64,000 bases of DNA from Phenylobacterium immobile (ATCC 35973) (GTDB taxonomy: Bacteria; Pseudomonadota; Alphaproteobacteria; Caulobacterales; Caulobacteraceae), in assembly GCF_001375595.1 (NCBI RefSeq), contig NZ_CVJQ01000001.1:2631001-2695000 (forward strand), given 5' to 3'. The notes below the pieces were generated by a model that was not told the DNA's origin, ran no database searches, and worked only from the letters and a program-made list of their open reading frames with translations. Shown in pieces: positions 41,159 through 53,406 of this stretch (within the stretch, counting starts at the first letter, position 1; each line of letters opens with the position of its first letter). The position numbers and the translations under genes are program-made.

Positions 41159-41184
41159 CGGCCGCGCCCTGGTGGGCGCGGCCG
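41159..41184 (-). terminator. intrinsic terminator of the TonB receptor gene
   Basis: A perfect 11-bp stem CGGCCGCGCCC / GGGCGCGGCCG with a four-base loop, followed on the minus strand by TTTTCG. It begins 24 bases after the receptor stop. Confidence 0.8.
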
Positions 41185-44063: not shown

Positions 44064-45641
44064 TTAGGTCACTGAAGCTTTAGGTGTCGTGGGGTGTGAC
44101 GCCGCCGGATAGCTCAGGGTGAGATCCGCATTTCGCTCGCGGCGCGCGGGCGGCGTGTAGCCGACGGCCGGCACGGGTTGATCAGCGCCAGGCCCGACCA
44201 AGGCCCGCTCCACGGTCGCAAAGAAGGGCGACTTGTCGTAGCCGAGGTAGAAGCCCGCCGAGTTACGCACTGGGTCGCCGCTGTAGAACTTGACGTACTG
44301 GCGGATCCGCTGACCGAAGGCGTCGCCCGTCAAGTCCCACGCCAGCTTGAAGAGCTTGACCCGTTCCTCGGCGCTGACACCGGGGCGACCGCGCACATAC
44401 TTGTCGATATACGGCCGCAGCTCGGCGTTATCGAAATCGCCCTTCGATGGCGCATAGAAGAAACCGCCGCCTGCGAGGGTATGGATGATGTCGACGTACT
44501 GCTGGTGGATCGAACCAGCCAGGCGGTGGCCCGCCCCGATGCCGTCGGAATAGGCGACCCAGTAGCCGTCGGGCCGCTCGAAGGCCATGGCGTCGGCCGC
44601 CAGATAACTCGTCTTTACCTGGTCGTAGGTCTGCAGCATCTGGCCAAGCTTTTCCTGGATATGCAGGAAACCGGTGATGCCGATCGCGTCGGCGAGCTTG
44701 GTGGCCACGCCGATGAGGAGTTCCAGCGACGCCATCTGGCGCGAGGAGGTCTGGATCATCATGCCGGACCGCGGGTCCATGGGCGCGGAGTTCACCACGA
44801 GGCCGCTGCCGGGCGAGCCGTCGACGATGACCCGGTCCCAGGGCACAAGGACGTCATCGAAGATGGCCACGCAGTCCATCTCCTCGAAGCGGCTGCTCAG
44901 CGGGTGATCGAAGAACGTCTTGTCGCCCGGCGAATAGCTTTCGCGACACAAGAACTTCACGCCCTTGGTGTTCGTCGGAATGGCGAAGACCAAGGCGTAG
45001 GCGTCGTCGCCCGGGGCCACGCCGCCGAAGGGGCTGACGACCAGTTCTTCAGTAAGCGGCGCCATAGTGCCCAGCATCTTGGCGCCGCGAACGATGATGC
45101 CTTCTTCCGTCTCGCCGACGCGGCCGAGATGCAGGAAGGGATCTTCCTGGTTGGCGGATGTCCTGTTGCGATCGATCTGCGGATTGACCAGCACGTGGGT
45201 CATGAACAGATCATTTTCCCGAACATGCTCAAGGTAGGCGAGCGCGTTTTGGCCGTACTTGGGATTGACCTTGCCGTAGTGCTCGGCCGAAAAATTCCAG
45301 CTCGACACCCAGGCGTTCATGAAGTCCGGAGCCCGGCCCATGGTGCCGAAGTTCTGATCGGCGCGGGCTTTGAAATGCCGGCGGCGCTTGACGATCTCTT
45401 CGCGTGAACGCGGAATCAGAAACGAGGTCGAAACCGGTTCGCCCGTTGTCGGCGACGGGAAGAGGCAAATGTCACGGAACTTCGGATCATGCTGCAGATC
45501 GTACTGCTCCATGATCGACTGAATCGGGCCGGTAAAAGCCGGATGCGTCGTCACATCCTCAAGGCGAACCCCGTTCAGCCACACTTCCGGCTGAGCATTC
45601 CGCAAGGAGTCGAGATAGTTCTGGCCTGTACGTGCGCCCAT
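44064..45641 (-). CDS. 4-hydroxyphenylacetate 3-monooxygenase-type oxygenase (HpaB family), copy 1
   Basis: A 525-residue FADH2-dependent monooxygenase oxygenase component. It opens MGARTGQNYLDSLRNAQPEVWLNG and has GTMGRAPDFMN, THVLVNPQIDRNRT, IIVRGAKMLGTMAPLTEELVV and RFEEMDCVAIFDDVLVPWDRV, the HpaB/acyl-CoA-dehydrogenase-like fold. It needs reduced flavin from a separate reductase, presumably HpaC at 50146. The product would be an ortho-hydroxylated phenol, but related enzymes use other phenolics. Start ATG 45641 matches the paralogue at 48545. Two operators precede it. Confidence 0.92.
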   Translation of the reverse strand: MGARTGQNYLDSLRNAQPEVWLNGVRLEDVTTHPAFTGPIQSIMEQYDLQHDPKFRDICLFPSPTTGEPVSTSFLIPRSREEIVKRRRHFKARADQNFGTMGRAPDFMNAWVSSWNFSAEHYGKVNPKYGQNALAYLEHVRENDLFMTHVLVNPQIDRNRTSANQEDPFLHLGRVGETEEGIIVRGAKMLGTMAPLTEELVVSPFGGVAPGDDAYALVFAIPTNTKGVKFLCRESYSPGDKTFFDHPLSSRFEEMDCVAIFDDVLVPWDRVIVDGSPGSGLVVNSAPMDPRSGMMIQTSSRQMASLELLIGVATKLADAIGITGFLHIQEKLGQMLQTYDQVKTSYLAADAMAFERPDGYWVAYSDGIGAGHRLAGSIHQQYVDIIHTLAGGGFFYAPSKGDFDNAELRPYIDKYVRGRPGVSAEERVKLFKLAWDLTGDAFGQRIRQYVKFYSGDPVRNSAGFYLGYDKSPFFATVERALVGPGADQPVPAVGYTPPARRERNADLTLSYPAASHPTTPKASVT

Positions 45642-45706
45642 AGTTTCCGTCCCAAGTTCGCGTCCGACGACGCAATGGCGCTTGAGCGCCTTTGTGGGCG
45701 GAAGAA

Positions 45707-45721
45707 ACTTACACCGTAGGG
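45707..45721. promoter_or_regulatory. YCTTAC-N3-GTAAGR operator 2
   Basis: ACTTACACCGTAGGG (left half perfect, right half GTAGGG). On the minus strand it lies just downstream of a TTGACA -35 candidate (45731-45726), so it would cover the -10 of hpaB-1. Confidence 0.7.
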
Positions 45722-45732
45722 CTTCTGTCAAG

Positions 45733-45747
45733 CCTGACGTTGTAAGG
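45733..45747. promoter_or_regulatory. YCTTAC-N3-GTAAGR operator 3
   Basis: CCTGACGTTGTAAGG, one mismatch in the left arm, 26 bases centre to centre from operator 2 and immediately upstream of the hpaB-1 -35 candidate. Confidence 0.5.
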
Positions 45748-45954
45748 CTGGGAGGTGAAAGCTAAGGCGGATGGTCCGTCATCGGTCGCAAGTCTGCGAC
45801 GGGCCCGCTGTGCGGGTCGGGATTATCCTATTGTTTCCATACGAATTATTGTCGGATTATGGGACTGCCGCCAGGGTTTGGCGCGAAGGCTGACGGCTGG
45901 AAATTATGCGGACGATTTCACACGCGAGGCGGAGTGCGGATCACGGGTTCGTGA

Positions 45955-45969
45955 TCTTACGGCGTAAAT
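45955..45969. promoter_or_regulatory. YCTTAC-N3-GTAAGR operator 4
   Basis: TCTTACGGCGTAAAT, 45 bases upstream of operator 5 on the ribBX side of the divergent region. Confidence 0.65.
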
Positions 45970-45985
45970 CAATTCACGAGCCGGA

Positions 45986-46014
45986 TTGACGCGGGAGAAA
46001 CTTACGTCGTAAGT
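45986..46014 (+). promoter_or_regulatory. ribBX promoter with overlapping operator 5
   Basis: TTGACG at 45986-45991 is a good -35. ACTTACGTCGTAAGT, a perfect palindrome at 46000-46014, occupies the spacer and -10 position (TAAGTT at 46010). Binding of a repressor here would block RNA polymerase. Confidence 0.7.
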
Positions 46015-46022
46015 TTTATTGG

Positions 46023-46110
46023 CGCTGAGGTTTTAAGCATTATCTCAGCGGCTGTTGTTTTACCTCCAATTGAACTTCCCACCCTTAGCAATGAGGGTGG
46101 GAATTTTTTT
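46023..46110 (+). terminator. leader hairpin and intrinsic terminator upstream of ribBX
   Basis: A 7-bp stem CGCTGAG/CTCAGCG (46023-46050) is followed by a textbook terminator: TTCCCACCCT/AGGGTGGGAA (46076-46103, 10 bp, 8-base loop) and seven Ts. It lies downstream of the operator-covered promoter and 34 bases before ATG 46144, so ribBX transcription must read through it or start after it. The FMN riboswitch consensus is not present. Confidence 0.8.
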
Positions 46111-46143
46111 GACTACTTAACAACGCTAGCTTGTGAGGAAGAT

Positions 46144-47310
46144 ATGATAAGATCACAGGCGTCAGATAGCCTTGATGCCGTGGCCTCGCATTTTGAACGA
46201 GCGATTTCTCCGATTGAGGAGATCATTGAGGAGGCGCGCAACGGCCGGCCCTATATCCTGGTTGACGCTGAGGACCGGGAGAACGAGGGCGACATCATCA
46301 TCCCCGCCCAGTTCGCCACGCCCGAGCAGGTCAACTTCATGGCCCGCTACGCCCGCGGCCTGATCTGCCTGTCGATCACGGCGGAACGCGCCAAGGCTTT
46401 GCGCCTGCCGCCCATGGCCGTCGACAACCAGTCCGGCCACGGCACAGCCTTCACCGTCTCCATCGAGGCCCGGGAAGGCGTCACCACCGGCATCTCCGCC
46501 CAGGACCGCGCCCACACCATCGCCGTCGCCGTCGATCCCTCCAAAGGCCCCGACGACATCGTCTCGCCGGGCCACGTCTTTCCCCTGGTCGCCAAGGACG
46601 GCGGCGTCCTCGTCCGCGCCGGACACACCGAAGCCGCCGTCGACATCTCGCGCATGGCCGGCCTCAACCCCGCCGGCGTCATCTGCGAGATCATGAAGGA
46701 CGACGGCTCCATGGCCCGCCTGCCGGACCTCGTCGCCTTCGCCCAGCTGCACGGCCTCAAGATCGGCGCCATCGCCGACCTCATCGCCTACCGCCGCCGC
46801 ACCGAGCGCCAGGTCGAGCGCGTGCTGGAACGCCCCTTCGACTCCGCCTACGGCGGCCGCTTCCGCATGCTCGTCTACCGCAACGTGCTCGACCGGACCG
46901 AGCACCTGGTCCTCGCCAAGGGCCGCATCGATCCAGACAGGCCCACCCTAGTGCGCATGCATCGCGTCGACATCGCCGCCGACATGCTCGGCCACGTCGA
47001 AAAGCGCCGCGACTACGTCCCCGCGGCCCTCAAGGCCATCGCCGACCACGACGGCGCAGGCGTCGCCGTCTTCATCCGCGATCCCAATCCCGCGTGGCTC
47101 TCCGAGCGATATGGCGCCGACGACGACAACCAGAGCGACCACACCTTGAGAGACTACGGCATCGGAGCCCAGATCCTCCTCGACATGGGCGTCGGCGAAC
47201 TCATCCTCCTCAGCTCCTCACAGACCGTCCTCCCCGCCGCAATGGGCTTCGGACTCAAAATCGTCGGGCGAAAAGAACTCGCCGAAACCACCCACCACCG
47301 ATCGGTCTAG
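46144..47310 (+). CDS. ribBX: RibBX: 3,4-dihydroxy-2-butanone-4-phosphate synthase with degenerate GTP cyclohydrolase II domain
   Basis: A 388-residue riboflavin-synthesis protein. The RibB domain (about 20-225) has ILVDAEDRENEGDII with the catalytic Glu/Asp cluster and RAGHTEAAVDISRMAGL, so it should convert ribulose-5-phosphate to the riboflavin four-carbon precursor. The C-terminal part (about 226-388) aligns with RibA but lacks the zinc cysteines of ECLTGD...LRCDCG; there is VRMHRVDIAADML instead. This is the RibBX type described in other proteobacteria, not a GTP cyclohydrolase. Its location and operators suggest extra flavin supply for the monooxygenases. Stop overlaps the convergent gene (CTAG). 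Confidence 0.9.
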   Translation: MIRSQASDSLDAVASHFERAISPIEEIIEEARNGRPYILVDAEDRENEGDIIIPAQFATPEQVNFMARYARGLICLSITAERAKALRLPPMAVDNQSGHGTAFTVSIEAREGVTTGISAQDRAHTIAVAVDPSKGPDDIVSPGHVFPLVAKDGGVLVRAGHTEAAVDISRMAGLNPAGVICEIMKDDGSMARLPDLVAFAQLHGLKIGAIADLIAYRRRTERQVERVLERPFDSAYGGRFRMLVYRNVLDRTEHLVLAKGRIDPDRPTLVRMHRVDIAADMLGHVEKRRDYVPAALKAIADHDGAGVAVFIRDPNPAWLSERYGADDDNQSDHTLRDYGIGAQILLDMGVGELILLSSSQTVLPAAMGFGLKIVGRKELAETTHHRSV

Positions 47311-52043: not shown

Positions 52044-52625
52044 CTAGACCGGCGCGTCGGACTTTCCGGCGCGCCGATGGGCCTCCTGACGCAGGCCGCT
52101 CAGCATCATGTCCAGCCCGTATTCGAATGCGATCTGCCGCCCCTCCGCGGTCGCCTGACGTCGTTGCCGCACCGCGCCAATCGTGAAAGCGACCAGGCCG
52201 CCTAGCGCAAGGTGGGCGTCATCCACGAAGCCCGCGGAGACGAGCGCCGCGCGATCTCGTTCTCCCCGGGCGACAAGCTCCTGGACGGAAGGACCTGACG
52301 ACATCAGGTCGACCATGCTGGGGTGGGCCTCCACCAGGCTGTGGAAGGCGATCATGACATCGCGAAGACCATCGATAGGGTCTTTCGCCGCCGGCGGATT
52401 CTGAATGGTGGCGAAGAGAGTGCTGCTGGCCGCAGCCAGCAGGGCTTCCTTGCTGGGGAAGTAGTTGTACAGCGACATCGCCTGCACCGAGAGCCTGGAT
52501 CCCAAGCGCCGCATTGAAAGCGCAGCGACGCCGTCTTGGTCCATCATCTCGATCGCTGCGGCGATAATCCGCTCAGGCGTTAGAGGATCACGCGCTACCG
52601 CGGCCTTGATTGTTGTCTTAACCAT
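52044..52625 (-). CDS. TetR-family regulator
   Basis: A 193-residue repressor. The N-terminal HTH covers about 17-62: LTPERIIAAAIEMMDQDGVAALSMRRLGSRLSVQAMSLYNYFPSKEALL. The rest is a helical ligand-binding domain typical of the TetR_C group. It is the only DNA-binding protein encoded in this locus and the simplest candidate for the YCTTAC-N3-GTAAGR palindromes. Its own upstream region lacks that palindrome but has two TCGTTGCA copies ten bases apart (52632-52649), so autoregulation might differ. The ligand is unknown. Confidence 0.9.
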   Translation of the reverse strand: MVKTTIKAAVARDPLTPERIIAAAIEMMDQDGVAALSMRRLGSRLSVQAMSLYNYFPSKEALLAAASSTLFATIQNPPAAKDPIDGLRDVMIAFHSLVEAHPSMVDLMSSGPSVQELVARGERDRAALVSAGFVDDAHLALGGLVAFTIGAVRQRRQATAEGRQIAFEYGLDMMLSGLRQEAHRRAGKSDAPV

Positions 52626-52773: not shown

Positions 52774-52986
52774 TTAATCCTCGATCGTATAGCCAAGCTT
52801 CACGGTCACTTGGAAGTGAGCCACGCGTTGGTCGACGACGTGACCGCGGGTCTCGATAACCTCGAACCAACGAATAGAGCGGCGGTTCTGGGCCCCATGC
52901 TCAATGGCATTGCGGATCGCATCTTCAATCGAAGTCTCTGACGATCCGACGATCTCGCTGATACCGTAGTTGTGGCTCTCACTCAT
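52774..52986 (-). CDS. dodecin flavin-binding protein
   Basis: A 70-residue dodecin: SHNYGISEIVGSSETSIEDAIRNAIEHG, the flavin-stacking Trp in RSIRWFEVIETRGHVVD, then VAHFQVTVKLGYTIED. Dodecins form 12-mers that store or buffer flavins. The operator-like ACTTAC-ATT-GTACGC lies 38 bases upstream and overlaps a TACAAT -10 candidate. Its presence beside flavin-dependent monooxygenases and RibBX supports a flavin-handling role in this locus. Confidence 0.93.
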   Translation of the reverse strand: MSESHNYGISEIVGSSETSIEDAIRNAIEHGAQNRRSIRWFEVIETRGHVVDQRVAHFQVTVKLGYTIED

Positions 52987-53113: not shown

Positions 53114-53196
53114 GCTCCCCGGGACACTTTCTGGGGGAGGTCAGGTGTCCCGGAGAGCAACCCGTCTGGCGCAGATGCTCACGGGTGAGCCAGACG
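53114..53196 (-). terminator. two strong stem-loops between the 67-residue gene and dodecin
   Basis: One stem pairs GCTCCCCGGGACAC (53114-53127) with GTGTCCCGGAGAGC (53145-53158) at 13 of 14 positions. A second pairs CCGTCTGGC (53162-53170) with GCCAGACGG (53188-53196) and spans the stop codon of the upstream gene. There is no T-tract; they probably separate the two transcripts or stabilise the mRNA end. Confidence 0.55.
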
Positions 53197-53382
53197 GCCT
53201 TCGATACACCAGGCGAAAAAGGCGCCCAGTTGAGCTTCGGTTTCGCCGGCGAGACCTGCGGAGCCGTAGCTGTTGGCCCAGTCGTAGGTGCGCGTCACAG
53301 CTTGGCGGCCCGCCACGTTGGTGTCGGGACGGCTGGTCAGAACGGCGTTGGCGGCGGCGGCGGTGGGGGGAACATGGATCAT
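53179..53382 (-). CDS. orphan 67-residue protein under the locus operators
   Basis: MIHVPPTAAAANAVLTSRPD begins the product, which continues VTRTYDWANSYGSAGLAGETEAQLGAFFAWCIEGRLAHP. AAGGAGAG lies eight bases upstream of ATG 53382. I know no family for it. It has no signal peptide or membrane segment. Two operator copies precede it, one of which (53392-53406) includes its ribosome site. Regulation with the monooxygenase genes suggests a role in the same pathway, for example as a small accessory factor. Confidence 0.7.
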   Translation of the reverse strand: MIHVPPTAAAANAVLTSRPDTNVAGRQAVTRTYDWANSYGSAGLAGETEAQLGAFFAWCIEGRLAHP

Positions 53383-53391
53383 TTGCGCTCT

Positions 53392-53406
53392 CCTTACAGT
53401 GTAAGG
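53392..53406. promoter_or_regulatory. YCTTAC-N3-GTAAGR operator 8
   Basis: CCTTACAGTGTAAGG, a perfect palindrome ten bases before the start of the 67-residue protein gene. The minus-strand GTAAGG arm runs into the ribosome-binding site. Confidence 0.7.

Follow-up and report, generated by a model that had tools for sequence, protein, structure and literature searches.

The leader of ribBX in the 64-kb stretch of DNA analysed here (the window), which belongs to a genome that groups among Phenylobacterium-like Caulobacteraceae, contains a strong intrinsic terminator between an operator-covered promoter and the gene. The reading that we favour, with a probability of about 0.5, is that the terminator works as a fixed attenuator with read-through, from which an RNA of about 89 nt would be released. 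A TetR-type repressor would leave the operator at 46000 and transcription would proceed from about 46022; most transcripts would stop at 46110, giving an RNA composed of a 5′ hairpin, an unpaired linker and the terminator, and RibBX would be produced from the fraction that reads through. As a fixed attenuator, the terminator would keep ribBX expressed at a lower level than the monooxygenases induced together with it. A fixed attenuator was favoured because neither a competing fold nor a leader peptide was found and the downstream promoter candidates were weak. We infer the start site, the identity of the repressor, the efficiency of termination, read-through and a possible role for the short RNA from sequence and predicted structure.

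A predicted operator-covered promoter precedes the ribBX leader

The ribBX gene (46144–47310, + strand), encoding a DHBP synthase with a GTP-cyclohydrolase-II-like domain (PF00926 and PF00925), is divergent from hpaB1 (44064–45641, − strand), which encodes an HpaB-like flavin monooxygenase (PF11794 and PF03241). The intergenic region of 502 bp contains, toward ribBX, the promoter and operator, a hairpin, a 25-nt linker and the terminator. Pfam searches showed that a flavin reductase (PF01613) is also encoded at this HpaB locus.

The predicted promoter, TTGACG-N18-TAAGTT (45986–46015, + strand), was the best + strand candidate in 45940–46130 and ranked 9th of 319,800 position and spacing combinations on the + strand of the window when scored with hand-set matrices. 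A palindromic operator, ACTTACGTCGTAAGT (46000–46014, motif CTTACNNNGTAAG), overlaps this promoter, and its right half-site constitutes the −10 region; a second, weaker operator copy, TCTTACGGCGTAAAT, is located at 45955–45969. The same layout of TTGAC, operator and TAAG(T/A)T or TAAGGG was also observed at hpaB2, at the hpaB genes at C1:1053574 and C3:35474, and in a relative (G120), with a spacer of 16 nt at these promoters and of 14 nt at hpaB1. The RNA probably starts near 46022 (predicted 46021–46022), because this promoter layout is common to the operators of the regulon. Both the rank and the shared layout support the operator-covered promoter that had been proposed in the preliminary description.

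The leader terminator is unusual in its position

The terminator, TTCCCACCCTTA-GCAA-TGAGGGTGGGAA followed by TTTTTTT, was detected by both simple and stricter scans at 46076–46110 (+ strand; seven Ts at 46104–46110), and was the sole + strand match in 64 kb to a perfect stem of at least 7 bp with a T-rich tail. The − strand of the window contained one strict match, at 41159–41184, directly behind a TonB-receptor gene. When the 502-bp intergenic region was shuffled with its dinucleotides preserved, a terminator with at least 7 perfect bp appeared in 9 of 4,000 shuffles and one with at least 10 bp in 0 of 4,000. A loose terminator scan was not significant (2 found, 3.0 expected), and the claim is therefore based on the strength of the terminator. 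As is characteristic of intrinsic terminators, a stable G+C-rich hairpin is followed directly by a U run. The strict scans and the shuffles thus bear out the strong terminator of the preliminary description. Its 10 contiguous Watson-Crick pairs and seven Ts were recovered as described, but the full stem comprises 12 pairs, including one G-U (−20.9 kcal/mol).

The same strict definition yielded two further terminators in 58 kb of other genome stretches, one in L156 directly behind a gene at 1593–2804 (−) and another near the edge of L157, indicating that the leader terminator is unusual in its position rather than in its strength. Among 114 upstream regions scanned at ribBX-bearing loci, a terminator was present only in five loci containing the same leader. 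Transcription from the operator-covered promoter appears, by structure prediction, to end at 46110, and so strong a terminator may leave very little ribBX expression.

The predicted leader RNA is built like a 5′-UTR-derived small RNA

The leader was predicted to fold with −44.2 kcal/mol (z = −4.0). For the 5′ hairpin (46023–46050, + strand), described at first as a 7-bp stem, the fold gave 9 pairs instead (46023–46031 with 46042–46050) around a 10-nt loop (−13.2 kcal/mol). The linker (46051–46075, + strand) was predicted to be unpaired in the 46022–46110 transcript and carries ACCTCC, an anti-Shine-Dalgarno-like sequence and possible seed; in a longer read-through RNA, part of it was predicted to pair with AACAAC on the 3′ side of the terminator. 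Despite its ACCUCC motif, the linker paired with 11 start regions from the three HpaB loci no better than shuffled linkers did. No homologue of the leader was found in the 101 genus genomes, plasmids or phages.

In the predicted 46022–46110 RNA, the 5′ end coincides with the base of the first hairpin and the 3′ end is a U7 tail. With its unpaired linker and a 3′ end of seven U supplied by the intrinsic terminator, this ~89-nt RNA would be built like a 5′-UTR-derived sRNA, and among the options offered in the preliminary description an RNA of about 90 nt fitted the anatomy of the leader best. U tails of at least seven have been reported to be necessary for functional Hfq-binding sRNAs (PMC6582626).

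The predicted leader resembles known bacterial leaders. IspZ of E. coli is an sRNA from the 5′ UTR of ispU that is ended by an intrinsic terminator with a 6-bp stem and eight U (PMC7815308), and the two have in common a short RNA that arises from the leader of a protein gene and ends at an intrinsic terminator. Unlike IspZ, the ribBX leader RNA is a prediction only, belongs to another gene with another sequence, has its promoter under a catabolic operator and is without a known target. Leaders of rib genes with the FMN riboswitch (RF00050) are likewise structured and place a terminator before a riboflavin gene, but the ribBX leader is without the aptamer.

No FMN riboswitch and no competing fold were found

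The absence of the FMN riboswitch from the ribBX leader, noted earlier from the missing consensus, was confirmed at three scales: RF00050 gave no gathering-level Rfam match in the 64-kb window, the leader region gave nothing relevant with E-values up to 10, and the whole genome gave none even at E up to 1. The weak Rfam matches that did appear (mir-2012, L10 leader, HepC CRE and others) were all far below gathering and were rejected as chance. Across the genus, RF00050 was present in 74 of 101 genomes; it precedes a lumazine-synthase-like gene (family assigned by eye) at L165, the single locus of the genus that was examined closely, and no ribBX was found nearby in the five RF00050 loci checked.

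A genome without this riboswitch, unlike 74 of the 101 in the genus, would suit a conditional antitermination in which a protein, a trans-acting RNA or the ribosome blocks the terminator when flavin is short, as a second flavin-related control of ribBX. The terminator sits exactly between promoter and gene, as such a control would have it, and inspection by eye suggests that the 5′ arm (GCUGAGG) might pair with the CCUUAGC of the terminator. Classical attenuation depends on either an alternative structure that competes with the terminator or a leader peptide. However, the best terminator-free structure had −19.9 kcal/mol compared with −34.3 kcal/mol with the terminator (14 kcal/mol worse), and stepwise folding showed that hairpin 1 forms first and persists and that the terminator then forms without competition; no mutually exclusive antiterminator fold was found in the full leader or during stepwise chain growth. 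Nor did the leader contain a credible ORF with a start site and a regulatory codon run, the only ORF being a 21-aa TTG ORF across the stem without a convincing ribosome site. No known RNA family was matched in Rfam. The novel attenuator that had been suggested was thus not recovered in its classical form, and conditional antitermination of another kind is rather unlikely.

Two further explanations place the control of ribBX elsewhere or deny the leader a role. If ribBX were driven by a second promoter that overlaps the terminator or lies beyond it, the terminator would insulate the gene from the operator promoter. Such a promoter after 46110 had been listed as an option, and TTGACT at 46109 and GCTAGCTT at 46125 are present, which we take to resemble the Caulobacter housekeeping promoter. 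Their spacing is too short, however, and the matrix candidates after 46110 ranked 70th or lower, compared with 9th for the operator promoter. These candidates, like TTGACT-GCTAGCTT, would start transcription no earlier than about 46139, within or beyond the Shine-Dalgarno-like purine stretch (46134–46140, + strand) 5′ of the ATG at 46144, and would thereby remove it; this explanation is very unlikely. The leader could also be a relic without selected function: the terminator would stem from an older short transcription unit or ancestral gene, and the ribBX segment would have landed behind it. In favour of this, the leader occurs in this genome alone, no upstream terminator was found for ribBX homologues elsewhere, and the body of ribBX is a sharply bounded, recent copy. 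The gene has, however, its own start, Shine-Dalgarno-like site, stop and RibBX-like tail, all of which fit gene conversion better than a new insertion, and a relic is unlikely. The fixed attenuator with read-through is therefore the reading carried forward here, given that no competing fold, no leader peptide and no strong downstream promoter was found.

The body of ribBX is nearly identical to a housekeeping gene

A second, housekeeping ribBX is located at C1:195k (L112 5348–6426). The segment 46201–47279 (+ strand) of the window ribBX is 99.7% identical to it over 1,079 bp, with three mismatches, and the similarity ends abruptly on both sides, inside the gene. The leader, the start codon, the Shine-Dalgarno-like site, 19 N-terminal and about 10 C-terminal residues and the stop are the window gene's own, and its tail, ...ASHFERAIS, resembles the RibBX tails of relatives (...APHESAIS). 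The simplest reading is that an older second ribBX was likely overwritten recently by the housekeeping copy via gene conversion; alternatively, a copied segment may have been inserted, or the assembly may be at fault. As the gene body is copied and the leader is its own, the two differ in history.

The product combines PF00926 and PF00925, and its RibA-like domain is without the zinc cysteines: in the alignment, SEC and RCDC of 4i14 are replaced by RVD and RRDY. It is thus like the RibBX of PMC10012899 and of Brutinel 2013, cited there, in which RibB is fused to a RibA-like domain without zinc cysteines. Unlike that RibBX, the window ribBX is a second copy under a catabolic operator, and part of it is copied from the housekeeping ribBX.

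The operator joins ribBX to other flavin genes

The operator motif CTTACNNNGTAAG occurred at nine sites in the 3.33-Mb genome, compared with 0 for the reversed control, and all nine were confined to three flavin-monooxygenase (HpaB) loci: 43939, 46001, 48479, 53393 and 53440 in the window, C1:1053410–1053526, and C3:35413. Their genes include ribBX as well as those for a RibF-like protein, dodecin and a TetR regulator. Since the operator is found only at HpaB loci with flavin genes, the ribBX leader is considered part of a TetR-type flavin-supply regulon. In the window, the gene for the TetR-family regulator (PF00440), the likely repressor of the operator, is located at 52044–52625 (− strand), and the flavin-binding dodecin is encoded at 52774–52986 (− strand; PF07311, 3.6e-24), with a 67-aa ORF (53179–53382, −) between the dodecin gene and the operators at 53393 and 53440. 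At the second HpaB locus, a FAD-synthetase-like (RibF) gene (L156 6563–7429, −) is divergent from hpaB, with three operators between them.

Among 390 genomes of the taxonomic family, loci of this HpaB family were found in one other genome only, G120, at E ≤ 1e-150. There, a TetR gene lies directly before the operator and hpaB, and the window TetR is its best homologue here, with 58% identity. This gene neighbourhood suggests that a TetR-type repressor acts at the CTTACNNNGTAAG operator. The G120 contig, which ends inside hpaB, contains no ribBX.

Two-component monooxygenases consume reduced flavin, and to our knowledge the raising of flavin supply by bacteria during catabolism has been little studied. 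The joining of monooxygenase genes to ribBX, the RibF-like gene and dodecin by one operator provides a testable case, and the extra terminator on the ribBX branch could determine the ratio or give rise to a small RNA. It is a distinctly speculative extension that one repressor matches flavin supply (ribBX, the RibF-like protein, dodecin and the reductase) to flavin-monooxygenase induction in a genome without an FMN riboswitch, with the ribBX leader serving either as a conditional attenuator of a new type or as the source of an inducible sRNA by which flavin use is tuned. A riboflavin gene inside a two-component flavin monooxygenase cluster is also found in the ipp cluster of Rhodococcus (PMC12442392), which differs in its monooxygenase family and in its 214-aa RibB-like protein; no leader is described in the available excerpt of that source.

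Two minor observations concern other operator sites. hpaB1 has, besides the operator at 45955, an operator-like site of its own, CCTACGGTGTAAG (− strand), in 45642–45735 near its start. The called start of the RibF-like gene at L156 overlaps an operator, and its true start is probably further in.
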